This document shows positions 2,226 through 64,000 of a stretch of DNA of 64,000 nt, piece after piece (position 1 is the first letter of the stretch; the number at the start of each line of letters is the position of its first letter). Position numbers and translations under genes: made by a program. This DNA is from Dysidea avara (Eukaryota; Porifera; Demospongiae; Dictyoceratida; Dysideidae): the NCBI RefSeq assembly GCF_963678975.1, contig NC_089274.1:18679633-18743632 (forward strand), written 5' to 3'. A model generated the notes under the pieces. That model ran no database searches. It saw only the letters and a program-made list of their open reading frames with translations, and was not told the origin of the DNA.

Positions 2226-3277
2226 GACTTTTTAAAAATGCTTATGAAAGTTCAATGCGGAGGCATGAACGCTACTGAGCTGTAGTAGCTATAAAGTCTA
2301 TAAAGAAATTGACTTTGAGAATGATTTTGGTGCTAATTTTGGCTGAAATTAAGTAGAAACTTTTAGAATTAGAATAACTGAGGTCCCCTGCACAAGCATC
2401 ACAAAAATTTTAAGCATATAGATAATCCTGTGTGCAGCTGCATCTCCACTATAGCCACTAGGGTGTGGATAGAGTCATTAACTCAATTTAGAACAGATGA
2501 CACATTGTTTTATAATTATGTTACTCTTGACTGTTTTATTAGAGTAAATTACTGTTCTAAACATATAGAAGGTGCTCTATCCCACCTACTGTTCCCCTTG
2601 TGCTGCATATGGGTAACAATTTGCTACAGACACATTTATTATATTACACATAGTCATAAACTGCATAAAAATATTTGAATTATGTCTGAGGTGCCTAGCT
2701 ATGTTGAATGAGCAACAGTTAAAAAATTCTGAGGGGGGGCGGCACTGACCCCCCGCCTCCGATACATAACTAGTAAGTATGCACTAGTGGTATGGAATGG
2801 TTATTGAGTAATTATATTACAGTGGAACCTCTCTGTTATGGACACCCAGAATTTTTGGCCACTTTTTGCTGTAATGTAGAGGTTTTCTCTTTCAGAGGTA
2901 AAATATGTAAGAAGTCAGACCTGTTGGGACCTGGAGGTTTTTTCTATTGTGTCCTTAATTCGGGGAGTTTGTTAAACTGTAGACATGTAATTAAGGCTGT
3001 AAAATGGGTAAATCAATGTGTATGGTTTTATCACTATAGATGTGCTCTGTTTATTTACAATTTGACTGAAATATATACGCAGGGAAGTAATTATATACCT
3101 ATGTATATCCTTATAAGGAAATTTTATTCCAGTAAAGTGTACTGAAGGTTAATGACAATAAAATGTATACTTATTATGAACTCTTGCTAATAGCTATTAA
3201 TATTGGCAAAAAAAAAAAAAAAAAGCCGACCAGTTGAAACGATTGAGATTTACGTAAGCGGTTGACCATTTAATCAC
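2226..3277. other. intergenic, repeat fragments and A18 tract
   Basis: No gene seen. It contains a GC-rich repeat end (about 2729-2765), a segment starting CAGTGGAACCTCTCTG at 2820 that resembles one terminus of the CAGTGGAAC MITE family seen near 10.35, 28.4 and 29.2 kb, and an A18 run at about 3209-3226, some 145 bp upstream of the likely start of the next gene. The promoter of NRF-6-like gene 1 should lie in its last few hundred bases, but I see no TATA element I would call. Confidence 0.4.
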
Positions 3278-3370
3278 GTGGTGTATATTGTCACGAGGTT
3301 GGCCGACCACTTGCTGACAGGGCGTGATCAAGAAAGGTCACTCGTTTTCGTGTTGAAGTTCCCAGCTATT

Positions 3371-5605
3371 ATGTTCAAGCTACTCGTGTTCGTTGTTTTG
3401 CTATGGAGTTTTCCGGCTACGCTATGCAATGACTTGGAAGAGACTTCACGTGCCAGGGTGCGTGCCGCAGGAGCAGAATTGGTCGGCCAATACTTCTACC
3501 CTCGTCTCATTCAAAGTGTAAAAAGTTTCAAGCTATCCGACACAGTAACCCTAGGACAGTATCAAAATCTTGCTAACAGTGACAGTGTAATAAAGTGCGG
3601 AGAGCATTTCAGTAAATTCATTGCCAGTTTAAATACGAGCCATCAACTTCAATATTACATGGATTCATTTGGAAAACCAGAGGCTGGAATTTTGTATGGT
3701 AACTATATATTCCTTGGCAATTATGACGAGTGCATTCTGATCGGAGACACTGACTTTTGTCTCTTCCCTTATAATGTAACTGTGTACGATCCTTTGAATC
3801 ATAAAAATATCAGCGAAGTGTTTGATTTAGGGATGTGTTATCCAGAACTATGTAGTGCACAGGATTTTTATGCATTAGTTAACTATTATGTTTTTACTGA
3901 ACTTCACAATTTGAACTTTTCTGCTATTGGCATCAACGCCACCATCGAGTCAGTCTTAACTGGACCATCATGTCCCTGGAGAAATCTTAAATGGACTGCA
4001 AGTTCCATTATAATGTTATTTGTATGTTGTTTAATGGCAAGTCTTGTGCTGCTTGGAACTCTAGTGGACATACTAATTTGGGCATTTGACATCTTGCACA
4101 AACACCGGCAATGTAATGAAATGAAGGCACCAATTACACTGGCTGAGTCAGTATCTGGTGATGAAAAGGAATCAATAAACGACGAAGAGCCGCTGATTAA
4201 TTCACAGCCTAAGAGGCAAGAGTACGGTTACAAAAGGAGTGATTTGCAGCATAGGCTAATGGAATTTGGAAAGGATCTAATTTTGTCATTTTCTCTTTAC
4301 AAGACTATTCCAACTATCATGGCAACATTCCAGCCTCCAAATGCGATCACAAGCATTAATGGAATACGTGTGATTAGTATGTTCTGGGTGATCCTGGGTC
4401 ACACATTCCTGTGGGGTTTGTTCTACCGGGTCACAGACGATGCTGTCTATGCTATTGAAAATGTCCCCAAGAAATTTGCTTTCCAGCCAGTAGCTAATTC
4501 ATACTTATCTGTAGATAGTTTCTTTGTGATGAGTGGTCTACTTTTATCCTATTTGGGGATCAAGGAGATGGAACGTCGCAAAGGAAAGTTTCCGTATTTA
4601 TTTTTCTATGTTCACCGTGTATTGCGTCTTTCGCCAGCATACTATTTTGTGTTATTTGCATACTACAAAATCCTTCCCCATGTTGGGTCCGGTCCCCTGT
4701 GGATCATAGAAGACATTGCTCGCTGTGACAAGTATTGGTGGACAAATATTCTCTACATCAACAACTTTTATCCAACAAAATTTTCAGATCAGTGTTATGG
4801 GGTAACATGGTACTTGGCAAATGATATGCAGTTCTTCATCATTTCTCCGATATTTCTGGTGCTTCTCTACCACTTTTGGTATGTTGGTCTTGCTGCTATT
4901 GGAGGCACCATGATGCTCAGTTTCATCACAATAGGCACACTGGCTGGGATTAAGAATCCTAATGCTAATTTACTACAAGGAAGTCTCCCCATTAATGGTA
5001 CTTCAGCAGATATTTCAGACTTCGCCTACTCTAACATTTATGAGAAACCTTATTGTCGTATCAATGCATACCTGATTGGAGTACTACTTGGCTTTGTACT
5101 GTACAAGAAGTGGAAGGTACCAGGTAATTTTTGGGTACGTCTTGGTATCCATGGAGCATTGTGGGTAGCAGCTGCAATATTTTGTTCACTGATTGCATAT
5201 GGCCAATACCAGACTTGGAATGACCACCCATTCAATAAGGCTGAGAATGTGCTATTTTTTATGTTCAACCGTACTGTCTGGAGTACTGGCATTGCTGTAG
5301 TGATATACTTGTGTCATAATAACTTTGGTGGTGCTATTAATACTTTCCTGTCATGGGGCGTGTGGGTACCCCTGAGTCGTCTGACATTTATGGCTTATCT
5401 TTCCCACCCCATTATACTGACTGTCATTTATAGTACCATGAGGTCTCAATTCTTATATACCCACTACTATCTGTCAATGCTGGTGGTCGCTGCTGTGGTA
5501 TTGTCTTATTCCTTAGCATTAGCTTTTGCTTCTTTCGTTGAATACCCACTAGCTAATGTGGAGAGTGCAGTTTACAAGTTTGCTGGAATAAAGAGAAGGA
5601 AATGA
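3371..5605 (+). CDS. NRF-6-like membrane acyltransferase, gene 1
   Basis: Multi-pass membrane protein of the nose resistant to fluoxetine / acyltransferase_3 family. Relatives move acyl groups in membranes or affect lipid and drug handling; the substrate here is unknown. The open frame begins at 3278, but I prefer the ATG at 3371 because it starts a signal peptide (MFKLLVFVVLLWSFPA), giving 744 residues. The secreted NRF domain (residues about 20-205) carries family cysteines in YDEC, DTDFC, GMCYPELC and SCPW and N-glycosylation sites. A membrane segment follows at about 210-240, then a cytosolic acidic/basic linker, then the acyltransferase domain from about 325: INGIRVISMFWVILGH, VDSFFVMSG, HRVLRLSPAYY and SRLTFMAYLSHP, about ten membrane helices in all, with a basic tail KRRK. 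Single exon. The closest relative in the window is the minus-strand gene at 40.4-42.6 kb; both end alike. Confidence 0.9.
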   Translation: MFKLLVFVVLLWSFPATLCNDLEETSRARVRAAGAELVGQYFYPRLIQSVKSFKLSDTVTLGQYQNLANSDSVIKCGEHFSKFIASLNTSHQLQYYMDSFGKPEAGILYGNYIFLGNYDECILIGDTDFCLFPYNVTVYDPLNHKNISEVFDLGMCYPELCSAQDFYALVNYYVFTELHNLNFSAIGINATIESVLTGPSCPWRNLKWTASSIIMLFVCCLMASLVLLGTLVDILIWAFDILHKHRQCNEMKAPITLAESVSGDEKESINDEEPLINSQPKRQEYGYKRSDLQHRLMEFGKDLILSFSLYKTIPTIMATFQPPNAITSINGIRVISMFWVILGHTFLWGLFYRVTDDAVYAIENVPKKFAFQPVANSYLSVDSFFVMSGLLLSYLGIKEMERRKGKFPYLFFYVHRVLRLSPAYYFVLFAYYKILPHVGSGPLWIIEDIARCDKYWWTNILYINNFYPTKFSDQCYGVTWYLANDMQFFIISPIFLVLLYHFWYVGLAAIGGTMMLSFITIGTLAGIKNPNANLLQGSLPINGTSADISDFAYSNIYEKPYCRINAYLIGVLLGFVLYKKWKVPGNFWVRLGIHGALWVAAAIFCSLIAYGQYQTWNDHPFNKAENVLFFMFNRTVWSTGIAVVIYLCHNNFGGAINTFLSWGVWVPLSRLTFMAYLSHPIILTVIYSTMRSQFLYTHYYLSMLVVAAVVLSYSLALAFASFVEYPLANVESAVYKFAGIKRRK

Positions 5606-11479: not shown

Positions 11480-13774
11480 TTAGTTTGTTGACAAAGCTTT
11501 CTTCTTCTTTTGATTTTTCCTTTCTTTTCCAAAATCAAATCCAAATACCTTGTATACAAACAGCACTAAATAAGTAAAAGGATACTCAACCAAAGCCACA
11601 ATGACTAGCGCCACTGAATAGCTTAATCCTACATTTGCAACAAATGCCAGTATGGTCAAGTAATCAGTCATCAAAACTCTTGTTTGCAGAGTGGCAAAGT
11701 AAAAGATGTACAATGGCACATGGATGAGGTAAGCTGCAAACGTCAATCGACCAAGGGGGACCCAGAGCTTCCATGACAAGATGGTGTTAATGATAAACCC
11801 ATAACCATTATGACATGCATAGATCACACATGAGAGACCAATACTGTATCCTGTAGCACTGAACATGAAGTAAGTGATATTCTCAAAATCTGAAAATTCA
11901 TGACCATTGAAACTCCCATACAGTCCATACACAGGTGTAATGCACAACACTACTGCTAATATCCACATGACTCCATAAAATGGTATTCGAACTCGTAGAT
12001 TCTTTGTAGGCTCCCATTTCTTGTGCAAAACAAATCCAAGCAGCATACCCACCAAATATGCACCAGCTCGGCAGTATGGTTTCTCATAAATGTCTGTCCG
12101 AGAATCAGGATACTCTAACACACCAGTGCCGTAGATTCCGCTAAAACCATCTTTAATCGCATTAGCATTATACTCGTTGACACCAGCAATTATTCCAGTA
12201 GTAGTCCAACTAGCACACAAAGTAGCTAATAATGCTGCCACTCCAGCTGGCCAATAGTAGTACAGCAAATAAAGAAATATTGGAACAAAGATGAACAATT
12301 GTGTGTCTACTGCCAAGTACCATGATATGATGAAGCAGATGTTATTATAGTCAGGGTGAAAGTTGTTTATGTATAACACATTGGTCCACCAATATTTGTC
12401 ACAGCTGTGACGATCAGTATAGAGCCAATTTGGTCCATGCCCAAGATGAGGGACTACTTTAAACCACAGGAACAACACAAAGTAATAAAGAGGAGAAATA
12501 CGAACATATCGGTGCAAATAAAAAAAGACCATTGGTATCTTTCCTTTACGACGGTCCATCTCTCTTAGCATCAAATAAGTAATTAACATTCCACTCAGTA
12601 ACAGAAAATTGTCAACAGCAAGAAATCCATTAGAGATTACTTGAAATGTAAACCGTGTATATGAATGTTCTCTTACATATATGGGATTATTAGCTATTTG
12701 AAAGTTAGTCCCATTCACAAAAGCATGAGATAGTATAATCCAAAACATGCCAATAACTCTTATCCCATTGAGACAAGTGATGGCTCCTTCTGGCTGATGA
12801 GTAGCCAAAATTGCAGGAACATTTTTGTACAAAGAAAAACATCGCAGAAAATCTCTAGTTAAACTGAGTGGATTACATTTTGTTGTCTTGGTATGCAAGT
12901 CTTTTTTATCTTTACTTTCATCTGATACTCCTTTATACGTATTCTCCTCAGAGTTCTCATCACCCACAATACTTGAATAACCACTTGTTTGGCCATTAGC
13001 TACATTGTCTGTAATACTGGAGTCATCGCTGCTATTTGGTTTGACCCACCATTCCTCATAATACCAATCTACTCCATCAACTAGACTACCTAACAAAGCC
13101 AGAACAACCAACAAACCACACACCACCAACATGATGATGGTACCAGCATCATAATCTAAGTCACGCCAAGGACAATAAACTGGAATGGTAGGGTCCACAG
13201 TAAAATAAACTGATGCTGGAAATAGACCACTACTATTAATATATTCATTAATTTGAATCAGTGAATCGTTTATGATCTTACTGAATTCACCAGGTGAACA
13301 TTGCCATGGATAACACAATCCTGCTTCAAGTGGTATTGACTGCTTAGAAATATTTAATGTAGCAATAATTTTAAATCGGCAATACCCAGTTTTGTTTATT
13401 GCAGTATCCTGCAGGTTGATACACTCATCATAATAGCCCCAGTAGGTGGTGCTGCCTTGAAGAAGTGCAGTACCTGGTTTACCCCAAGAGTCAAAATATT
13501 TAGTAGCATCAGTGTCATTGTTTTTAAAGGCCGTCACAATACGATACAATCCCATCAAACAACTATCTTGATCCAGTGGTTCAGTGGTTTGTTCGATCAT
13601 TCTCCTCCACACATTGATCAACAAATCAGAATCAAAGTATTCTGACCACTGGTTGACAATAGAATACAGGTGATTAGCTCTGTAATATTTCACTGATGCA
13701 TCATCATCATCTTGACTGCACACCACACCAGTCAACCCCCACAACATCATCATCAATAACATCATTACCTTCAT
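11480..13774 (-). CDS. NRF-6-like membrane acyltransferase, gene 2
   Basis: Divergent paralogue of the other two NRF-6-like genes, 764 residues from the preferred ATG at 13774-13772. The open frame continues upstream to 13849, but TATATTGCAG just before position 13785 is a good 3' splice site, and the ATG ten bases later starts a signal peptide (MKVMMLLMMMLWGLTGVVC). I infer a non-coding first exon further upstream. The NRF domain keeps paired cysteines (DSCLMG, YDEC, TGYC, LCYPWQC, VYCPW). A membrane segment (TIIMLVVCGLLVVLALLGSL) and a Ser/Glu/Lys-rich linker come next, then the acyltransferase domain: INGIR-type LNGIRVIGMFWIILSH, VDNFLLLSGML, HRYVRISPLYY, DKYWWTNVLYINNFHPD and GRLTFAAYLIH. 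The tail is very basic (KERKNQKKKKA). The active-site-like His of SHAF is kept. The substrate is unknown. Confidence 0.9.
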   Translation of the reverse strand: MKVMMLLMMMLWGLTGVVCSQDDDDASVKYYRANHLYSIVNQWSEYFDSDLLINVWRRMIEQTTEPLDQDSCLMGLYRIVTAFKNNDTDATKYFDSWGKPGTALLQGSTTYWGYYDECINLQDTAINKTGYCRFKIIATLNISKQSIPLEAGLCYPWQCSPGEFSKIINDSLIQINEYINSSGLFPASVYFTVDPTIPVYCPWRDLDYDAGTIIMLVVCGLLVVLALLGSLVDGVDWYYEEWWVKPNSSDDSSITDNVANGQTSGYSSIVGDENSEENTYKGVSDESKDKKDLHTKTTKCNPLSLTRDFLRCFSLYKNVPAILATHQPEGAITCLNGIRVIGMFWIILSHAFVNGTNFQIANNPIYVREHSYTRFTFQVISNGFLAVDNFLLLSGMLITYLMLREMDRRKGKIPMVFFYLHRYVRISPLYYFVLFLWFKVVPHLGHGPNWLYTDRHSCDKYWWTNVLYINNFHPDYNNICFIISWYLAVDTQLFIFVPIFLYLLYYYWPAGVAALLATLCASWTTTGIIAGVNEYNANAIKDGFSGIYGTGVLEYPDSRTDIYEKPYCRAGAYLVGMLLGFVLHKKWEPTKNLRVRIPFYGVMWILAVVLCITPVYGLYGSFNGHEFSDFENITYFMFSATGYSIGLSCVIYACHNGYGFIINTILSWKLWVPLGRLTFAAYLIHVPLYIFYFATLQTRVLMTDYLTILAFVANVGLSYSVALVIVALVEYPFTYLVLFVYKVFGFDFGKERKNQKKKKALSTN

Positions 13775-13784
13775 CTTTGTGGTG

Positions 13785-13800
13785 CCTGCAATATAAGGGA
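13785..13800 (-). other. probable 3' splice site in the 5' UTR of gene 2
   Basis: On the minus strand CTTATATTGCAG precedes GCACCACAAAGATG. A pyrimidine/T-rich tract and AG lie directly upstream of the ATG that starts the signal peptide. This favours the shorter protein start and implies an upstream leader exon. Confidence 0.5.
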
Positions 13801-14029
13801 TTATTGTAAAGAAGTACAGTCTCTGTTTACAAGTGATCGCTAAATTCATCCTTATTCTTTTGTTGGATTGAATTTGCTTATGATTTTGAGTATTAGACAG
13901 TATTTTAAATCAGCGGTGTCCAGTTGCCGGAGTGACATTTTTGACATGTAAGAACTAAACAAGTACTTGGTATTGTGCTGTTTTAAAAGCCAGGCACCCA
14001 GTCAATAAATCCTTGCTAACTAAATAAGA

Positions 14030-25261: not shown

Positions 25262-25909
25262 TACTCAACTAATTGAAGCAGAAGAGCCACGCCACTGCCC
25301 ATCTACAGTACGAGCTCTTGTGAAGAATTGAAGGGTGAGTAAGTCCAGAGATAATAGAGAGGTGCGTAATTATCTGTCTTAAGTAAACGCCTTTAAAAAT
25401 TTATATTACTTATAAATAAGCGCACCAGAATATGCTGTTATCTTTCAGTCACGTTCAGAGTATCTTTGGCTGTTACGAAGATTGTCGTTTCGTGTTGCAG
25501 AGATTGAGACACAATTGGTGAGTTGCCGTGCATGTATTTGTCTTGTAAAAATTAAATTGCAAAACCACAGGCAAAACGTAAGCGAAGTTCATTTAATTAG
25601 CGCATACCAAGACAGCATCAGGTTGAAAATTTTACTGCTATATAAGATGTTGTCTGGAGATGACACTATAGTATCCTAGTGTTATCTTGATAATCCTTCA
25701 CTAGTACAGTGAAAACACGTCATTGTAGGGAAAAAATTTCTTCTGACCTTATTAACCCATAGATAATATATACCATAGATAATATATACCTTATATTATC
25801 TATGATTAACCCATAAACCCAGAAAGAACTTTTGGGGAATGCGTGTTTACACAACATGGGCATGCGTGGCAACACTAGGTGGGGTAACTTAATTCTTATA
25901 TCCCACAAC
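25262..25909. other. intergenic with splice-like signals and a small palindrome
   Basis: TTTCAG/TCACGTTC to ACACAATTG/GTGAGT (25449-25518) is an open, splice-bounded stretch that could be an exon of the element next door, but I recognise no protein. At 25745-25812 CATAGATAATATATAC occurs twice in direct order and once inverted (TATATTATCTATG), next to TTAACCCATA on each side. Confidence 0.35.
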
Positions 25910-26428
25910 TACACATTGGTTAAAAGTCTGTTCAATGTGACTTTCACACCAAACCATTGGTCTAACGAGCAGAAGACAAAAGAGTACATAGAAAAGATTA
26001 TTCTGCCATATGTCTCAGAGAAGCGCAAAGCACATGGAAAACCTAATCAGACTGCATTAATCATTTTCGATGAATTTAAAGGCCAGGTAACAGATGACGT
26101 TTACAACATGTTAGATTCCAACAACATACAAGTTGTAAAAGTTCCTCCAAATTGTACAGACCGCCTTCAGCCTATGGACCTGAGCATAAACAAACCAGTA
26201 AAGGACTTTTTACGGGACAAATTTCAAAAGTGGTATTCAGAGGAGGTCAAGAAAGGCTATGGTCAATCGGGCAATGTCATGCCTGTTGATCTGAGAATGT
26301 CCACAATGAAACCGCTGGGAGCTGGTTGGCTTGTTGGTGCCTACAATTACATCAAGGGAAAAGATTCCATGGTGAAGAACGGCTTCAAAGCTGCAGGCAT
26401 AACTGATATAATTAGCAAAGTTTTGTAG
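25910..26428 (+). pseudogene. pogo/Tigger-type DDE transposase, C-terminal part
   Basis: Encodes the C-terminal half of a DDE_1 (pogo/Tigger/jerky) transposase, which cuts and joins transposon ends at TA sites. Landmarks: FTPNHWSNEQKTKEYIEK, the second catalytic Asp in ALIIFDEFKGQ, KVPPNCTDRLQPMDLSINK with the third Asp, and KDFLRDKFQKWY. Homology starts abruptly near VKSLFNVTF; the DNA-binding N-terminal half and first catalytic Asp are missing upstream, so this is a 5'-truncated copy or the last exon of a gene whose earlier exons are lost. The frame is open to the stop at 26426-26428. It converges with the HIRAN-ULP1 gene 480 bp away. Confidence 0.8.
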
Positions 26429-40404: not shown

Positions 40405-42585
40405 TTAATTCCTTCTCTTTACTCCAGTATACTTGTAAACTGCACTCTCTACATTGGCCAGTGGATACTCAATGAAGGAAGCGAAAGCTAATGCTAAGGA
40501 GTAAGACAGTACAACAGCAGCAACCACCAGTATTGACAGATAATACTGGGTATATGTAAACTGTGATCTCATGGTATTGTACATGACAGTCAGTATAATG
40601 GGATGGGAAAGATAAGCCATAAATGTCAGACGACTCAGGGGTACCCACACGCCCCATGACAGAAAAGTATTAATAGCACCACCAAAGTTATTATGACACA
40701 AGTATATCACTACAGCGATGCCAGTACTCCAGACAGTACGATGGAACATGAAATACAACACGTTCTCAGTCTTATTGAATGGATGGTCATGCCAAGTCTG
40801 GTATTGGCCATATACCACCAGAAAACAAAATATTACAGCTGATGCCCATAATGCTCCATGGATACCAAGACGTACCCAAAAAGTACCTGGTACCTTCCAC
40901 TTCTTGTACAGCACAAAGCCAAGTACTACTCCAACCAGGTATGCATTGATTCGACAATAAGGTCTCGCATAAATGTTATTAAGGGCAAATTCTGTATCTT
41001 CTATTAAGCCATTGCTGGAAACAAATTCTTCTGCATAATTTGCATTTAGATCCTTAACCCCAGCCAGTGTGCCTATTGTGATGAAACTGAGTACCATGGT
41101 GCCTCCGATAACAGCTAGACCAACATACCAAAAGTGGTAGAGAAGCATCAGAAATAATGGAGATATGATGAAGAACTGCATATCATTTGCTAAGTACCAA
41201 CTTACAGCAAAACACTGATCTACAAATTTTGGATAAAAGTTGTTGATGTAGAGAATATTCGTCCACCAATACTTGTCACAGTATGCAATGTCTTGTATAA
41301 TCCACAGGGGACCAGATCCAACATAGGGAAGGATTTTGTAGTAAGCAAATAACACAAAATAGTATCCTGGTGAAAGACGCAGTAGACGGTGAAAGTAGAA
41401 AACTAAATATGGAAACTTTCCTTTGCGACTTTGTATCTCCTTGATCCCCAAATATGATAAAAGTAAACCACTCAACATAAAGAAGCTATCCACAGCCAGA
41501 AACGAGTTTGAAATTGGCTGGAAAGTAAATTTCTGGGGCACAGTATGAATAGTGTAAAGAGTATTATCTGTGGCCTGGAATGATAAAGCCCACAGAAATG
41601 TATGCCCCAAGATTACCCAAAACATACTAATGACACGTACACCATTGATGCTTGTGATTGCATTTGGAGGCTGGAATGTCGCCATGATAGTTGGAATAGT
41701 CTTGTAAAGAGAAAATGACAAAATTAGGTCCTTTCCTAAATCCATCAGTCTTTGCTTCTTGCTTTGGCCATCCTCTTGCTTCTTACGTTGTGCATTAATC
41801 ATTGGTTCTTCCTCACTAATTGTCTCCTTGGCATCACTATCAGATAAATCATCAAATGTAACTGGTGACTTCAATTCAATACACTGCCAGTGGTTGTGCA
41901 AGATATAATACGCCCATATCAAAATATCCACCAGTGTTCCGAGCAGCACAAGACTTGCCAATAAACAGCATACAATCAACATTAAAATAGAACTTGTTGT
42001 CCATGGAAGATGCCTCCACGGACACAGTGGTGCACTCATGACTGGTTCAATGGTGCCATTAGACAGATTTAGATAGTTAATGTAGGAGAAACTTAACGAG
42101 TAAAAATCCTGTGCACTGCAGATTGATGGAAAACACATCCCTAAATCAATTATCGCGCTGACTGATTCATTATTCAAATACACTGTCAAATTATAAGGAA
42201 AGAGACAATAGTCAGTGTTCCCGACGTTAAGACACTCGTCATAACTGCCAAGGTACATATAGTTCCCGTACAAAAGACCAGCTTCTGGTTTTCCAAACGA
42301 GTCAAGGTACTGTACTTGCTGGAGTAGACTTAAGCTGTCTATGAATTCCATATAGTTGCGTTGACAGTCTGCTGCACTGTACGTGAGATTTGGAAACCTG
42401 ACTGGGATTCGTACATCAGACAGTTTTAAACTTTTGACACTCTGAATGAGACCAGTATACAATTGTTCGCTCACCATAGATGCTCTGAGTTCTGCGGCAT
42501 ACGAGACCCCTTCCAAGTAGTTTTCGCACAGCGTAACAGCCGGAAACCTCCACAACAAAACTGCGAAAATGAGTAGTCTGGGCAT
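40405..42585 (-). CDS. NRF-6-like membrane acyltransferase, gene 3
   Basis: Close paralogue of the gene at 3371-5605. The frame opens at 42624, but the ATG at 42585 starts the signal peptide (MPRLLIFAVLLWRFPAVTLC), giving 726 residues; the same position is used by gene 1. The NRF domain has YDEC, NTDYC, GMCFPSIC and LCPW cysteine motifs. A membrane segment (SSILMLIVCCLLASLVLLGT), a Glu/Lys-rich linker, and the acyltransferase domain follow: INGVRVISMFWVILGH, VDSFFMLSG, HRLLRLSPGYY, YWWTNILYINNFYP and SRLTFMAYLSHP. The tail is KRRN. Single exon, no breaks. By eye most residues of the acyltransferase domain are identical to gene 1, and a 138-bp stretch (about 40603-40740) differs at only two or three bases, far less than its flanks. 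Substrate unknown. Confidence 0.9.
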   Translation of the reverse strand: MPRLLIFAVLLWRFPAVTLCENYLEGVSYAAELRASMVSEQLYTGLIQSVKSLKLSDVRIPVRFPNLTYSAADCQRNYMEFIDSLSLLQQVQYLDSFGKPEAGLLYGNYMYLGSYDECLNVGNTDYCLFPYNLTVYLNNESVSAIIDLGMCFPSICSAQDFYSLSFSYINYLNLSNGTIEPVMSAPLCPWRHLPWTTSSILMLIVCCLLASLVLLGTLVDILIWAYYILHNHWQCIELKSPVTFDDLSDSDAKETISEEEPMINAQRKKQEDGQSKKQRLMDLGKDLILSFSLYKTIPTIMATFQPPNAITSINGVRVISMFWVILGHTFLWALSFQATDNTLYTIHTVPQKFTFQPISNSFLAVDSFFMLSGLLLSYLGIKEIQSRKGKFPYLVFYFHRLLRLSPGYYFVLFAYYKILPYVGSGPLWIIQDIAYCDKYWWTNILYINNFYPKFVDQCFAVSWYLANDMQFFIISPLFLMLLYHFWYVGLAVIGGTMVLSFITIGTLAGVKDLNANYAEEFVSSNGLIEDTEFALNNIYARPYCRINAYLVGVVLGFVLYKKWKVPGTFWVRLGIHGALWASAVIFCFLVVYGQYQTWHDHPFNKTENVLYFMFHRTVWSTGIAVVIYLCHNNFGGAINTFLSWGVWVPLSRLTFMAYLSHPIILTVMYNTMRSQFTYTQYYLSILVVAAVVLSYSLALAFASFIEYPLANVESAVYKYTGVKRRN

Positions 42586-42766
42586 GTGTTTATATACGGA
42601 CGTAGGCAGTACAACACGAAACAAGGAGGTAGCTACTCTATTTTGATAGTCGACCCTCGCATCAACTTCACCATAGATAGGTAGGCGATAAATACAAGTA
42701 ATAAAATATCGATACCGAACCAGAATGTCCGATACTTTGGTATCGATTACTTTTTCGGATACTTTT

Positions 42767-44344: not shown

Positions 44345-45480
44345 CATTGTCGGTGTGTTATATTATTATATTATTATTTGGGGGAAAAGGGCAGACAGCA
44401 AAGCTGATTAAGCCCAAACAATCACAAATTATAAGTGCTGTTCAATCAAGTTTGAAAATGTAGCTAGAGTGTTCAGTTCAATTAGGTGTGGTGGCAGTGA
44501 ATTCCATTCCCAGATAGTTCTTGGAAAGTAGCTTGTCATGTAGGTGGTGGTGTTTGTTGGTGGTACAATCAAGTGAAACGGATGATGATGTCTAGTGTGT
44601 CTGGTGGTGAAATGAATGTATTCTGGTAAAGATAAGCCAATTCCTCCATGCATTATTTGATAGAAGAAATTAAGCCTCTGTTGTTTCCTTCTCTTCATTA
44701 GGGGTAACCAGTTGAGCTGTTCCAGCATGGCACTAACACTACTGTGATAACTATAGTCAGATAGAATCCATCTAGCTGCACGCCTCTGAACCTTTTCTAA
44801 GATTGATATCTGAGTCTGATAGTATGGGTCCCAGACAACACTTGCATACTCCATTACTGGTCGAACCATAAGTAGATAAGCAGATGCCTTGACATGTGAT
44901 GAACACTTACTAAGATGACGTTTAAGGAAGTTCAACATCCTTGTAGCCTTGTTAGCAACGTTTGTAACATGGGTGGACCATGAGAGGTGGTCATCTAGCA
45001 TAACTCCAAGATATAAATGATTATGTGATAGAGATAAAATGGATCCATGAAGGGAATAATCTGCAATCATAGGATTCTGGGACCTTGTACATCTCATAAC
45101 AGTGCATTTACTAGGATTGAACATCATCTGCCAAGTGACTGCCCATTGGGACAGAGTGTCTAAATCCTGTTGGAGTAGGATAGAATCTTGTTCTGTTTTA
45201 ATAGCACGATACAATAAACAGTCATTTGCAAAAAGTCTTAGCTGAGATGAAATATTTTCTGTAATGTCATTGATATAAATCAAGAACATCAGCGGACCCA
45301 ACACTGTACCCTGAGGTACTCCAGATGACACAGGGACATAGTCAGATGATTCTCCATCCAGTAAAACTCGTTGTTTACGTACTGTGAGCCATTTTTCAAT
45401 CCAGTGGATAACTTCGTTTTCAATATAGTAAAACTTCAGTTTCTTTAACAGGTGACAATGTGGCACGTTATGTTGTGTAC
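44345..45480 (-). pseudogene. 5'-truncated non-LTR retrotransposon, reverse transcriptase
   Basis: Minus-strand frame (stop at 44429) encoding the C-terminal two thirds of a CR1/Jockey-type reverse transcriptase. Visible motifs: SGVPQGTVLGPLMFLIYIND, then FANDCLLY where FADD is expected, so a catalytic Asp is Asn and the copy is dead. NPSKCTVM, YLGVMLDDHLSW, RPVMEYASVVWDP and QRRAARWI follow, then the C-terminal WNSLPPHLIELNTLATFSN. The endonuclease and fingers are missing, as in usual 5' truncation; homology starts at HNVPHCHLLKKL. The 3' UTR ends in CCCCCAAATAATAATATAAT, a short A/T-rich tail like those of this group. Confidence 0.85.
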
Positions 45481-45481
45481 T

Positions 45482-45597
45482 GAACAAGAACACGTTGTGT
45501 ACTGAACAAGAACACGGGCGTGTTTGCTGATTTATTTATTTATTATTACTAAACAAGAACACGGGCGTGTTTGCTGATTTATTTATTTATTATTACT
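45482..45597. repeat. two nested tandem duplications
   Basis: GTACTGAACAAGAACACG occurs twice at 45476-45515, and a 47-bp unit (AACAAGAACACGGGCGTGTT, TGCTGATTTATTTATTTATT, ATTACTA) occurs twice at 45504-45597. It sits exactly at the 5' break point of the truncated retrotransposon. Confidence 0.8.
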
Positions 45598-54429: not shown

Positions 54430-55150
54430 AGACATCTAAATGTGATCCATTACTTCTGTTTGGAGCTTGCTGTCAGTAACATTATCGTCCATGTAAATTA
54501 CTAGTCGAATACCCTGAGATCCACTGATGGCTTGAGAATCTTTGTACTCTTGGGGCTATGCATAGACCGAAGGGAAGCCAGTTAAATTGGAAAGTCTTCC
54601 TTGAAGTGTAGGAGATGACAAAATTGAGGGGCTATTGGGACAATAAAGATGACATCCTTCAGGTCCACTTTGGCCATCCAGTCGCTTCTCCTTAGGAGAG
54701 CTTTCACTCTGTATAGCACCTTCATCTTAAAATGCTCATCTTTCTTTGGTACTACTAGGAACACATTCAAGTAGAATCCCTGAAATTTGATGTATGGCCT
54801 GCTTCTGCAGAGGGACTGAATCTCCTTCTGCAGTATTGCTGCATCCTCTGATGGTTGCAGGGTGGAAGATTGTGGACAAGCTAAGAAGGGAATGTGATGA
54901 CACATGGCTCCTGGGCTAGGTCTTTCCTGAATAGGCTGATTCTGCCAGCAAAGATCTGACTGGCCTTGACAAAATTTAATGGTCTCTGCCATTTTGGCAA
55001 TGTGCTTCTCTGAGACAGCTGAATCCATGGTGGAGCCTCTATCCAAAATTTACAATTACAAATTACAAATTCTCTAGTGCAAGAGATAGGTCCATTATGG
55101 TTTGAGTGAAGCTGGATTGGCTTCTCTGAAGCCTTTTGTGTACACATTCA
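54430..55150 (-). pseudogene. DIRS-type reverse transcriptase remnant
   Basis: Minus strand. Frame 55046-54582 reads FLVVPKKDEHFKMKVLYRVK, then SDWMAKVDLKDVIFIVPI; after a frame change come GFPSVYA and IRLVIYMDDN near 54485. The order (VPKKD, DLKD, PFG-like, YMDD) and wording match the reverse transcriptase of the DIRS element at 60.1-62.3 kb, including the EHFKM string. At least two frame breaks and several stops; RNase H and recombinase are absent. Older than the neighbour copy. Upstream sequence to 55150 keeps weak similarity to the linker before the reverse transcriptase. Confidence 0.75.
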
Positions 55151-58370: not shown

Positions 58371-58960
58371 TGTATAATATAATGACAATTAGTTAAGTCT
58401 CTTGTAAACAATGGTGAAACAAAAGCAGAATATAGTAAAAAAAAATATTGACATTCCATGATACATTACCAATGTTTAATGGGTCAATAACAACAGAAGC
58501 TCCTAAGTGCCTCTAGGCATAAATAAGCTCCTGATAATACCACTCCAATAGAGTCAACTTGGTTCAAACTTGTATCTATCATTGAGCTTTTAATTTCTTA
58601 GTTGACTTCCAATAATCATAGCAGCAGACTTCAGCATTCTAACATGAACAAGAACTACTAATCCATGATTATTTCATCCTGGCTTTTGTTTTGAAGGCCG
58701 CACCTTTTTACAGCTAGGTGTTTAGTTATAGTTAAACCCCACCAGGAGTATGATATTGTAGTTGTAGTTATCAACCTGAGGCCAAGGCAAAGTGAGGTTG
58801 AGATGTTGATAACTAGATATCCTAGGATTGCAGGTGGGATTTAACTGGCTTCTATCCCACCCTTTGAAGCAGTCAAGTTCATAAACAATGTGTCAATAAG
58901 CTAGACAAGCATGTCAGCTGTGTGTGGCTTCAATTTTTGCTGAACTTGTAGTTTTACTAT
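58371..58960. other. intergenic with a small fold-back
   Basis: 58732-58851: AGTTAAACCCCACCAGGAG and AGGTGGGATTTAACT form outer inverted ends, with GATATTGTAG / ATATCCTAGG and TTATCAACCTGAGGCC / GTGAGGTTGAGATGTTGATA inside. The flank before 58961 is unique sequence next to the DIRS 3' terminus. Confidence 0.5.
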
Positions 58961-59036
58961 ATAATTCATAAATGGTTCAGACCATGGAGTGATTGCCAGC
59001 TATTTGGAATTATATGAAGAAGGTGAAGTTGAGCAT

Positions 59037-59142
59037 ATCAACAGTGTTTGGCCAGTTCTCTCATTTGAACAGCTTTTCGCAGTAAAAAATATCCTCCGGA
59101 TAAAAAATAAAAACCCACAATCGAACCACCCACTTCGGCCTT
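59037..59142. repeat. DIRS 3' inverted terminal repeat
   Basis: Inverted match to 63365-63470 over 106 bases with about three differences. It contains GCAGTAAAAAATATCCTCCG and ACCCACAATCGAACCACCCA. Confidence 0.9.
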
Positions 59143-59191
59143 TTGAATAGCTGCAACCATTCCCTACGGGATGGGTGGGTGGGTGGGACCG

Positions 59192-59306
59192 TTGATATGC
59201 TCGACTTCACCTTCTTCATATAATTCCAAATAGCTGGCAACCACTCCGTGGTCTGAGCCATTTATGAATTATAATTCAGAAGGCTCAGTCTCACATATCA
59301 ACAGTG
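59192..59306. repeat. DIRS internal complementary region
   Basis: 59192-59272 is inverted to the 3' end piece at 58961-59045. 59271-59306 is inverted to the 5' end piece at 63466-63500. The two halves meet at GAATTATAATTC. It overlaps the end of the recombinase ORF (stop at 59291), as in other DIRS elements. Confidence 0.85.
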
Positions 59307-60295
59307 TTGTTTGTAGCTGGTTGACTGTGTTGGCTGAGCACCACTCTGCCGAATGATGGGTTGTCTGTCGGTCTATAGTAAAATCGTTGAAAAGTTGACT
59401 CAGAACTCCAACCTGCAGCTTTGAGGATATCTGAGGTTGAAATCCCTGCTGATGCCGCTGCAGACGAGGAGGCTCCTCTTACAGAGTGAGCACCAAATAT
59501 TGAAGTATCAATGCCTGAAGCTTCCAGTAAGGACTTGAGCCATCTAGCCACAGTACTTGAAGACACCGCCTTATGTGGCTTGATGATTGCTACCAACAGC
59601 TTGGTTTCCCTTTCCCGAAGGGGTTGTGTTCTACCCTCATATTCCTTCAAGGTTGACACTGGACACAATCTACTCCCTCCTGGAAGAGGGGGAAAAAAGA
59701 AATTTGTAATCTGTGATGTGGACCTTGACTGCTTGGCCAAGGTGCTTGGATAAAAACAGACTCCGTCTGGCTTGTACACCCGTTTAGATATATCCAGTTT
59801 TGACAGATCAGCTGATCTTGATGGGCGAGACAATGCAAGCAGCATTGTCACTTTCCGTGATAGGTGTTTCAAGGACAACGTCTGATTGTCCCCTAGTGTG
59901 TCAATGTAGTTTAGCACTTTCTGAACATCCCAGGTCTGTGAAAAACGTGGCAGTGGAGGTCTGGCATGAAAGACTCCCTTTTCAAGCCTGCAGACCAAGG
60001 GGTGTTGGCCAACTGTGTAGCCATCGATCTTCTCATGAACTGAGGAAATTGCCGACCGATAGGCATTTACAGAGCTGTATTGGTACCCCTCCTTGTAGAG
60101 GTATGCCAGGAAGTTTGCCACCTGGGCTATAGGGCTACGAAAGGGATCTGAACCCCGTTCAGAACACCAGCAGTGCCACTTAGTGAATAATGAGTCATAG
60201 GACTTGTTTGTTTTAGTCCTCCAGGAACTAAGCATAAGTTCTGTAGCTTCCTCCGAAAGCTGCTGACCTCTGTATCTCTCCCTGAGATATGCCAT
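59291..60295 (-). CDS. DIRS tyrosine recombinase
   Basis: 334-residue tyrosine recombinase (phage-integrase fold) that inserts the circular DNA of the element. I start at the ATG at 60295 (MAYLRERYRGQQLSEEATEL); the frame is open up to 61024, but that part is the other-frame shadow of the RNase H/methyltransferase ORF. The SAM-like core-binding domain spans about residues 15-110 (SWRTKTNKSYDSLFTKWHCW, VANFLAYLYKEG). The catalytic domain holds the first Arg in SRPSRSADL, the His-x-x-Arg box in AHSVRGAS (about H270 and R273) and the Tyr nucleophile in FQRFYYRP (about Y306/307). All key residues are visible and the frame is intact to the stop. It overlaps the polymerase ORF by about 170 bp, which is usual for DIRS. 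Confidence 0.88.
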   Translation of the reverse strand: MAYLRERYRGQQLSEEATELMLSSWRTKTNKSYDSLFTKWHCWCSERGSDPFRSPIAQVANFLAYLYKEGYQYSSVNAYRSAISSVHEKIDGYTVGQHPLVCRLEKGVFHARPPLPRFSQTWDVQKVLNYIDTLGDNQTLSLKHLSRKVTMLLALSRPSRSADLSKLDISKRVYKPDGVCFYPSTLAKQSRSTSQITNFFFPPLPGGSRLCPVSTLKEYEGRTQPLRERETKLLVAIIKPHKAVSSSTVARWLKSLLEASGIDTSIFGAHSVRGASSSAAASAGISTSDILKAAGWSSESTFQRFYYRPTDNPSFGRVVLSQHSQPATNNTVDM

Positions 60296-62285
60296 ACGGC
60301 TAGTTGTGGGAGCATCAGTGAGTTGTCCCTGTTGACCATTATCTCGGTTTCTGTTGTTATTAGTTTGGGATAATCCACCAACATGTATAGGAGTGTGGGA
60401 TACCATGGTTGGGATCTCCACACTGGTGCTACCAGCACTATGTTGGCTTGTTGAGTCTGGACCTGAGAAAGTGTCCGGCCTATCAGATTCCATGGTGGGT
60501 TGGCATACCCCTTGATGTGGGTCCACACTTGGAGAAATGCGTCTGTTGCTTCTGCAGATGGATCTGGCCGCCAACTGAAGTAGCGTGGGCACTGGGCAGA
60601 CAGACGAGTCGCAAAGAGATCCACTTCCAGTGGACCAAAGTTTTCCTGTATTTTGTGGAATATGGAGGGAGACAGCTTCCAGTCTGTCCTGTCTGTCTGG
60701 GCTCGTGATTCTGCATCTGTGATAGTGTTCTGGATTCCGGGGAGGTGTTGAGCTGTGATGTGTATATTCCTCTCCAGACACCACATCCACAGATCCTTTG
60801 TCAGATTGACCAGGTCTCTTGAGACTGTCCCCCCCAGATGGTTGATGTAAGCAACTGCTGTGGTATTGTCGATCCTCAGCAGGATGTTTAGTTTGGACTT
60901 GTTTTTTGCAAATGACTGTACTGCTAGTGTTGCTGCCAGCAACTCCAAGCAGTTGATGTGGAGGGTTACCTCCTTTTGTGACCATGCTCCCCTTGTGGTT
61001 TGTATTCCACAGCGAGCTCCCCATCCCTGCAGTGATGTATCGGAGTCAATAATCATGTCTATCTCCATCTTGAGGAGAGTCTTCCCATTCCATTTGGACA
61101 TCTCCGTGTCCCACCATTTCAGCTCTTCCAAGCTGGCTGGCGAGAGGGTCAGTGTACCCTCGTAATCCTGGGAGTTGGTCTCCAGGGCATTGGAGAGAGC
61201 CATCTGCAGGTTTCTGTAGAAGAGGGGTGCAGGGGGAATTATGCATGTCGTTGAATTCATTTTGCCCAATAGGCGTGCTAGTATTCAGGCTGAGGTTGGC
61301 CCCACCATCCTCCTTATCTGTCGAGACTCTGCTCGAATCTGTTTTATCTTGGCAGGAGGAAGTCGTAGCTCCATATTGATGGAGTTGACTATGAGACCCA
61401 AGAACTCTATGGTCTGATCTGGGGTGAGCACAGATTTCTCTGTGTTGATGATGAATCCCAGACACTCTAGTAGGTATACTACAGCTTGAGACTGATCCAG
61501 AGCTTGCTCCTTGGACTCTGCCATAAGGAGTATGTTGTCTATGTAGACAATCATCCGAATCCCTCTCTGGCGTAACACAGCCAGGGCTGGTTTCAGAGTC
61601 TTTGTGAACACCCATGGGGTGGAGCAGAGGCCAAAAGGAAGGCAGGTGAAGCAGAAGGTTTTCCCTTGGAATTGAAACTGCAGGTATATCTGATGTGATT
61701 GGTGTATCGGAATTGTAAAGTATGCGTCCTCAGGTCGATCTTTGCCAGCCAGTCTCCCTGCTCCAGTAGGTCCTTCAGGGTGTGAATGCCCTCCATCTTG
61801 AAGTGCTCTGGGTGAACAAAGCTGTTTAGTGCTTTGAGGTTGATGACGGGTCTTTGCCCCCCATCCTTTTTGGGTACCAGAAATATTTTTGAGTAGAAGT
61901 CCCTCTCCGAGGGGCACTCCACAGGTTGTATCACCTGTTTCTGTAGGAGCTTGAATATTTCCTCCTGTATTAGTGTGACCTGCTCCGAGGTATAGTGTGG
62001 AGTTGGCCGTGACTCTTGGCGTGGCATTGCCACAAAGTCTATCCGGTATCCCCGTACCGTACTTAGTACCCACTGGTCCTGCGTTATGGCAGACCAGTTT
62101 GCCAAATAATGAGCCAACCTGCCTGCCTGCGGCAGGTCTGGTTGATGGCAATGTTCTACTCCGAGACATGCAATCTGATTCAATAGGATACTTTTCCAAT
62201 TCATTATCACACTTTTTGTAAAGGTGTGTGCATGAGTCACTTGTTCCAAGTGTTCTTCTGGAATAATTTTCCTTGGCTTGGCCAT
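60127..62285 (-). pseudogene. DIRS reverse transcriptase-RNase H-methyltransferase ORF
   Basis: Reverse transcriptase with FLVVPKKD-type IFLVPKKDGGQRPVINLKA, WLAKIDL, TCLPFGLCSTPWVF and MIVYIDNILLM; the expected YxDD has Asn for the second Asp, which should abolish activity. RNase H follows with all four acids: DSDTSLQGWGA, NCLELLAA, RIDNTTAVAY, TDAESR. After it comes a DNA N6-adenine methyltransferase-like domain, characteristic of DIRS, with DLFATRLSAQC and the NPPW motif in GYANPPWNLI. Two lesions: a one-base loss near 61731 splits DLKD from the following residues, and an in-frame TGA lies at 61287-61285 between reverse transcriptase and RNase H. Otherwise one continuous ORF, so decay is recent. 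Confidence 0.88.
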
Positions 62286-63321
62286 CCTCTCTGGGCTCCT
62301 CCCCCTCCTCGTGTTGGCTTGCGAGAGTAACCCCCGGCTGTTGGGGGGCCTGGTCGAAAAAACGGCTTGGACGTGCCAAGGGTGGACCTCATTGCCTTCA
62401 CTTGATCCACATGCTGCTTCGACTTTTGGGCAAACTCTGGCCCAAATAAAGAGGGCGATGCTTTTTTCTCTGAAGTTTGAGTCCTCCGAAGTTTGAGTCC
62501 TCCTCGACCAGTGGGAGCAGTGCCTTATTCATCTGTGAGATGACCTTTGTACGTCGGAGGTGACTGATTCGGGCACTGTCCAGTAGCTTAACTGCATCTG
62601 TGGCAGTGCTAACAGTTTCCTTTGGGACGTCCTGCTTTGTTTCCAGGATGGCACTAAGTGGGGCAAGGGCATCAAGCACATGGGATTGGATTGTAGCCAA
62701 CTCCTTGTCCACAGCCTTGGTTGCTGGTGGTATCTCAGTTTTGAGGTAGCTATCCAGCTGAGGTGTCCGGGATGCTGTCACTTTAGGAAGAGAGTACACA
62801 TTCCTTACTTTCAGGCAGTCTGCATACTCCAGTCTACTGGTACAGGCTTGTGAGATAATAGACCCCGTATCCTCAGACACTGCGGCTACGTTGGTGGGGG
62901 CAGCTTGGTGCTTACCCGGTCCCATGGGCTCGATATCAGAGTTGTACTCCCACTCAACTACCTCGTTGTATTGAGGTGTATCAGGAATGTCCTCCCAGGA
63001 TTGGGTCCTCTCACAAGTGGGGCTCCTCGAGTTTCTGTCATGGCGGCCACGTGTTTCTCCCCGAGGTGGCGACACCGATCTACTCCGAGATCGCTCAGGT
63101 AAGGAGCTGGTGTTCTCTCTCCGAGAGTGTGACCCGCCTCTGTGGTCCGAACTACTCCGAGATCGTGACCTCGAGGGTGAGTGACGTCTATGGCACCGGC
63201 GAGAGTGCCGCTTGCCATGCTTCTTCCGCTTCTCCGAGCGATACTTCAGCTTATTCAAGTCATTCTGTAAGCCGTCAAACTTGTCTGAAAGGTTTTTAAC
63301 TAGAGACTCTAGTTCAGACAT
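62237..63321 (-). pseudogene. DIRS gag-like ORF
   Basis: First ORF of the element. It starts 44 bp inside the 5' inverted terminal repeat (MSELESLVKNLSDKFDGLQN, a heptad-like coil), then an Arg/Ser-rich stretch (HSRRCHRRHSPSRSRSRSSS) resembling SR proteins and suited to RNA binding, an acidic stretch, and an alpha-helical part to 62510. The direct duplication GAAGTTTGAGTCCTCC at 62472-62487 and 62488-62503 (16 bp) shifts the frame; the frame with FGPEFAQKSKQHVDQVKAM then runs to a TGA at 62239-62237, overlapping the start of the polymerase ORF. A structural protein of the retroelement particle by analogy; no zinc knuckle seen. Confidence 0.75.
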
Positions 63322-63364
63322 GACCGTTCAAAATTAACTGCGAACACGTGTTTCAGCTAAGAAA

Positions 63365-63470
63365 AAGGCCGAACTGGGTGGTTCGATTGTGGGTTTTTAT
63401 TTTTTATCCGGAGGATATTTTTTACTACGAAAAGCTGTTCAACTGAGAGAACTGGCCAAACACTGTTGAT
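63365..63470. repeat. DIRS 5' inverted terminal repeat
   Basis: Inverted partner of 59037-59142. The gag ATG lies 44 bp further in on the minus strand, so the repeat probably carries the element's promoter. Confidence 0.9.
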
Positions 63471-63493
63471 ATGTGAGACTGAGCCTTCTGAAT

Positions 63494-64000
63494 TATAATT
63501 CATAAATGGCTCAGACCACAAAGTGGTTGCAAGCTATTTAGAATTATATGAAGAGGGTGAGGTCGAGCATATCAATGGTGTATGGCCAGTTTCCATTCTC
63601 AAACAGCTATTTCGCAGCTCTAATTATTGCACACTCCTGTGTGTTAGTTTAAAAGGAACCCACAATCGATCCCACCTCGGTCTTTGAGTAGCTTGAACTC
63701 ATGCATTACTCCGGGTGGGAGGGTGGGACCATTGATATGCTCGACCTCACCCTCTTCATATAATTCTAAATAGCTTGCAACCACTTCGTGGTCTGAGCCA
63801 TTTATGAATTACATTTCAGAGGGCTCAGTCTCACATATCAGTGGTGAGGTTTGTAGCTGCAGCCAAATTCAAATGAGAGCACTGCTCTACCCTAGACTGA
63901 GGCCTCTGATAACTCTTTGGAGAGCTGATTCTGAGGACTAGTTAGTTGGCTGCTTACAGGGCGTCGATTATGACTGCCCATATATTCAGATCATTGGATG
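63494..64000 (-). mobile_element. 3' end of a second, older DIRS copy (cut by the window edge)
   Basis: Repeats the 3' end plan of the first copy in the same order: end piece 63494-63585, diverged inverted repeat region 63586-63730, internal complementary region 63731-63845 (CCATTGATATGCTCGACCTC ... GGCTCAGTCTCACATATCA), then the last codons of a recombinase. From about 63940 the minus strand reads SSESALQRVIRGLSLG then a stop, aligned to WSSESTFQRFYYRPTDNPS of the first copy, so the Tyr nucleophile is lost. The inner repeat region is clearly more diverged than that of the first copy. Head-to-tail with the first copy and continuing beyond the window. Confidence 0.8.

Follow-up and report, generated by a model that had tools for sequence, protein, structure and literature searches.

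Two DIRS1-like elements abutting head to tail at a shared 3-bp core in the genome of Dysidea avara

The analysed stretch of Dysidea avara DNA (the window, 64,000 nucleotides; G000:C3:18679633-18743632) ends within two paired DIRS1-like elements that lie on the minus strand (Table 1). An earlier note on this DNA had described two DIRS elements abutting head to tail without a gap, and this was confirmed: copies 1 and 2 have the same orientation, with zero bases between them, and no base intervenes at the palindrome GAATTATAATTC where they meet. The ends of copy 1 were corrected to 58963 and 63499 when the element was taken from core to core.

Table 1. Features of the paired elements and their flank, in window coordinates
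Feature	Position	Strand	Basis or remark
Host flank X, lying within a dispersed repeat	58720-58962	.	Other repeat copies run straight into far flank Y
Copy 1, complete DIRS1-like element	58963-63499	-	4,537 nt, core to core; repeats and aligned termini
Outer core AAT, right (3') end of copy 1	58963-58965	.	Comparison of element ends
Copy 1 right terminus (right extension and inverted terminal repeat)	58963-59157	-	Self-comparison repeats
Copy 1 internal complementary region (ICR)	59188-59308	-	94% complementary to tandem junction 63459-63579
Copy 1 tyrosine recombinase frame, 584 aa stop to stop	59291-61045	-	Pfam Phage_integrase 7.6e-07
Copy 1 reverse transcriptase (RT) region	61285-62388	-	Pfam RVT_1 4.2e-16
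Copy 1 gag-like frame, N-terminal part RS-rich	62398-63327	-	tblastn/frame comparison
Copy 1 left (5') terminus	63350-63499	-	Self-comparison repeats
Junction palindrome GAATTATAATTC	63490-63501	.	Read in the sequence
Common core AAT, copy 1 left end to copy 2 right end	63497-63499	.	Aligned element ends
Copy 2, right part within the window	63497-64000	-	Goes on past the window to C3:18746551
Copy 2 ICR	63728-63840	-	Inverted repeat 63467-63579/63728-63840, 96%

Copy 1 carried an RT domain, a tyrosine recombinase, inverted terminal repeats and an ICR complementary to both ends, as DIRS1-like elements do. In its recombinase frame an HSVR motif was found at residue 520 and an FYY motif at residue 555, which we take to be the HxxR and Tyr motifs of tyrosine recombinases. 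The RT/RNase H region was broken and spread over several frames. The Pfam scan gave no match for the gag-like frame (62398-63327), and no methyltransferase domain was found in the four copy 1 frames scanned, a set to which frame 60127-61284 did not belong. Self-comparison of the window yielded inverted repeats at 59018-59157/63350-63489 (90%) and 59188-59308/63459-63579 (94%), and direct repeats at 58960-59077/63494-63611 (81%) and 59173-59319/63713-63859 (90%). A 3-bp circular junction, AAT on the plus strand and ATT in the sense direction, fitted both termini, and target-site duplication was absent, as judged from the empty site of the pair described below. In the relevant passages of Piednoel et al. 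(2011, PMC3266345), animal DIRS1-like elements have inverted terminal repeats, an ICR near the 3' end with a right extension, and a 3-bp circular junction (AAT, the elements starting and ending with ATT, which is the terminus seen most often), and they insert with no target-site duplication. Copy 1 has this architecture without any difference from that account, whereas copy 2 differs from it in lacking RT and recombinase.

Extension of the contig to the right, which the earlier note had proposed, completed copy 2, reached the far flank and recovered the empty site. The complete copy 2 is 3,423 nt long (L009:30-3452, ending at C3:18746551) and has both termini, the ICR, the core and gag-like sequence. 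Frames of 150 aa or longer, taken from copy 1, L015 and L014, were compared with it by tblastn; they matched gag and, briefly, the first part of the L014 frame that follows and overlaps it, and no recombinase and no further RT were detected. The same structure was present in L010 (94%), in L012 (87% alike over two long parts) and partially in L011. A query with the copy 2 interior, for which 40 of 274 candidates were scored, found it at three other loci, on C13 (94%), C3 at 13.7 Mb (87%) and C5 (78%), while the remaining matches were confined to smaller portions of the query, mostly to a dispersed repeat of 200 nt. This repeat, of ∼200 nt, lies in the non-coding part of copy 2 (L009:1000-1211) and occurs at many other loci at 79-87% identity. 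Copy 2 had been thought to have lost the Tyr of its recombinase. Because a structure free of RT and recombinase sequence is common to other loci, copy 2 belongs to a small non-autonomous family and does not represent a decayed recombinase-bearing copy; it is a non-autonomous derivative and not an autonomous DIRS1-like member.

It was found that AAT cores are present at the junction and at both outer ends of the pair (58963, 63497 and L009:3450). The junction itself is chimeric. Junctions of the copy 1 and copy 2 types differ at 63493, at 63495 and, on the other side, at 63521; the present one is of the copy 1 type up to 63495 and of the copy 2 type from 63521, which places the switch within about 63496-63520, and the solo copies described below narrow the crossover position further. 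The self-comparison showed the ICRs to be complementary to the left and right ends combined. Since 63459-63579, which spans the junction, shows 94% complementarity to the copy 1 ICR, the genomic junction has the shape expected of a DIRS circle junction. A 401-nt junction query was matched from end to end at the present locus only, among the 40 of 354 candidates scored.

The host site was examined with an empty-site query composed of the flank to the left of copy 1 (X), AAT and the flank past copy 2 (Y, L009:3453 onward), which was searched genome-wide. Of 48 matches listed (40 of 242 candidates scored), 24 crossed the X-Y join, extending from query base 17 or less to base 270 or more. Alignment of ten of these revealed that L036, L039 and L041 carry TATAATCTA exactly, and L034, L035 and L038 have the same length at the join with 1-2 changes; at this point L042-L044 contain gaps and L037 an insertion. 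Thirteen further listed matches ended at query 120-125, just short of the join, indicating that the host repeat is variable close to it. Nevertheless, X and Y are the two halves of one host repeat copy. Since the joined flanks recreate a stretch of the dispersed repeat, both elements occupy a single target; nothing was duplicated and host DNA is absent between the copies, as insertion of circles by a tyrosine recombinase would predict.

The ends of other copies were inspected for target preference. The boundary at 41 right ends was flank–A(A/T/C)T–TCAT, apart from a single GAT; at 22 left ends it was TAA–n; all 18 elements with both ends located (at other loci, or copy 2) started as flank–A.T–TCAT and ended as TAA–n. 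The count of 41 was made after nine of 30 fetched right-end loci had been dropped: L049 because its flank is that of L048, L065-L069 and L072 because they share one common flank, L074 because it has no clean end, and L057 because its end was not found. On the right side of the core, T occupied position -1 in 31/41 (P = 3e-9) and A position -2 in 25/41 (P = 5e-5); on the left side, T followed the core in 14/22 (P = 0.002). At the solo copies, then, a 3-bp core stands in a weakly preferred (A)T-AAT-T context. It had been suggested that the palindrome or a 3-base core within it is the shared crossover site. A 3-bp core was indeed seen at the solo ends; the 12-mer GAATTATAATTC was rejected as a target site, as the 41 right and 22 left ends have the short core and weak preference in its place. 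This flank preference resembles the circle junction, so an existing DIRS end would make a good target. The right ends of L048 (C9:9971449) and L049 (C9:9952265) lie 19 kb apart; their common host flank suggests that a DIRS locus was duplicated. L065-L069 and L072 are six right-end-like stretches whose flanks are almost the same, as though another repeat had taken up a DIRS end.

Taken as a whole, the locus was probably formed by the setting of two DIRS1-like elements in one host site through tyrosine-recombinase recombination at the 3-bp circle-junction core. We infer a circle, an enzyme and a succession of two events. One element would have inserted at AAT in the dispersed repeat, giving X-AAT-element-AAT-Y. 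A circle of the other element, with a right-end–AAT–left-end junction, would then have recombined with the AAT at the terminus of the resident, whose end would offer a ready half-site, and the product would be X-AAT-[R1 copy1 L1]-AAT-[R2 copy2 L2]-AAT-Y. Because copy 2 codes for no recombinase, any recombinase acting on a copy 2 circle would have come from an autonomous relative. Three histories could have given this product: copy 2 joined a resident copy 1 at its left end, a resident copy 2 received copy 1 at its right end, or a single circle brought in both.

The earlier note had proposed that a circle was inserted by its tyrosine recombinase into the terminus of a resident, older and Tyr-less DIRS copy. 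Insertion of a circle at a resident terminus agrees with tyrosine-recombinase integration; the order of arrival was not borne out. Under the DIRS model the ICR serves as the template for the termini, and a newly inserted copy should therefore show agreement between the two. The untrimmed termini differed from their own ICR at 5/113 positions in copy 1 and 2/113 in copy 2 (P = 0.45), and after trimming at 4/110 and 1/110, respectively. In five sisters of copy 1 the count was 0/565, from which copy 1 (P = 1e-4) and copy 2 (P = 0.03) both differed; the ICR counts of L021, L023 and L028 were not used, their ICR-bearing stretch being missing or shifted. Private substitutions, which are upper bounds on age since they include changes prior to insertion and since copy 2 has one close sister only, numbered 76/4484 in copy 1 and 41/2900 in copy 2 (P = 0.39), compared with 21-47 of 4484 in the copy 1 sisters. 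Of the 76 in copy 1, 42 were C>T or G>A. Copy 1 is thus older than its five sisters and not a recent insertion, and these counts do not show a greater age for copy 2 than for copy 1. That a copy 1 circle entered a clearly older copy 2 is one of the two orders within the two-event explanation, takes its share of that explanation and is allowed by the structure; with copy 1 older than its sisters by both measures and no greater age visible in copy 2, we regard it as somewhat doubtful.

The indistinguishable ages would agree just as well with both copies arriving together. Two circles, one from each copy, could have recombined with each other through the AAT junction that each carries, and the resulting dimer could have entered X-AAT-Y in one insertion. 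The product would be identical, and the two copies have compatible junctions; but two circles of different families would be required in one nucleus, and the copy 2 family is small (copy 2 and three loci), so this route is unlikely. It is with the same reserve that the pair might be viewed as the fossil of such a heterodimer circle, in which an autonomous and a recombinase-less DIRS were fused via their 3-bp junctions, with one recombinase acting in trans.

Compared with these routes, it is very improbable that the pair reflects a mistake in the assembly or an unequal recombination of two DIRS loci. The sequence is repetitive and was read from the assembly, but the outer flanks are halves of one host repeat that join at the core, whereas unequal recombination would leave unrelated flanks, and the collapse of two alleles would require two insertions at the identical base. 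A recent tandem duplication of a single element, for which the common orientation speaks, can be dismissed almost outright, because the copies belong to different families, their compared 3' ends being 81% identical, and differ in length and coding content, and the host flank is not duplicated; the empty site together with the 81% identity also excludes the duplication including host flanks that the earlier note had named as the result that would overturn its reading.

To return to the two-event explanation, the frequency of such tandems was determined with end patterns. A 45-nt left-end pattern (≤3 mismatches) had 29 matches genome-wide, and a 56-nt pattern of left end running into right end (≤3 mismatches) had one match in 550.8 Mb, the present locus; the reversed controls gave 0 in both cases. 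The terminus-to-terminus tandem thus occurs at 1/29 left ends of the copy 1 type, a figure to be read with the fact that 10 of the 29 already have three mismatches, so that the 56-nt pattern would miss their junctions upon any further change. A copy-2-type left end running into a right end had 0 matches genome-wide, and no further tandem was found among the listed 41 right and 22 left ends. By chance landing on an existing end, 1e-4 to 3e-3 pairs would be expected with 50 copies and 4e-4 to 0.012 with 100, where copy numbers were assumed, site densities were taken from the window and the calculation followed the sighting of the tandem. Because this expectation is low, termini look favoured as insertion sites in a sample of one; a single case is too few to measure a preference.

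Such behaviour has precedents. DIRS-1 of Dictyostelium was reportedly seen to insert into DIRS-1 by Cappello in 1984. In passages of later papers (PMC5006619, PMC5633606), DIRS-1 prefers existing DIRS-1 copies, which is attributed to the recombinase, with no apparent sequence preference and with centromeric clusters. The placing of one DIRS in another is shared with the present locus; unlike those clusters, a tandem occurs here at one of 29 left ends, and its two termini meet exactly. The present family is without the strong clustering described for Dictyostelium, tandems being rare. Danio rerio DIRS1 likewise shows 'homing' into pre-existing copies, in a passage (PMC5941688) that gives no junction sequence, whereas junction and empty site could both be read here. 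No base-resolved DIRS pair was described among the listed titles and abstract openings on tandem, head-to-tail or non-autonomous DIRS, which included few subscription journals, and we claim no priority for one. The pair fits the known DIRS insertion model well and is a well-resolved case of known behaviour, nothing new in kind.

That model rests mostly on the ends of solo copies; the present locus alone resolves, at the level of single bases, the empty site, three cores and a junction between two families. The locus supports insertion at the 3-bp core and suggests that a recombinase tolerates termini from another family that has no recombinase. It also yields a rate of terminus-to-terminus insertion in an animal genome (the 1/29 above). 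If the heterodimer circle were true, DIRS circles would recombine with each other prior to insertion.

Several other features were observed in the window. A DIRS-like reverse transcriptase remnant, recognised by tblastx against copy 1 and L014, lies at 54439-54737 (minus strand), an RVT_1 frame at 44429-45535 and a DDE_1 transposase frame at 25817-26428. Three frames of ∼780-810 aa with NRF and Acyl_transf_3 domains, at 3266-5605, 11480-13909 and 40405-42765, have no interrupting stop.
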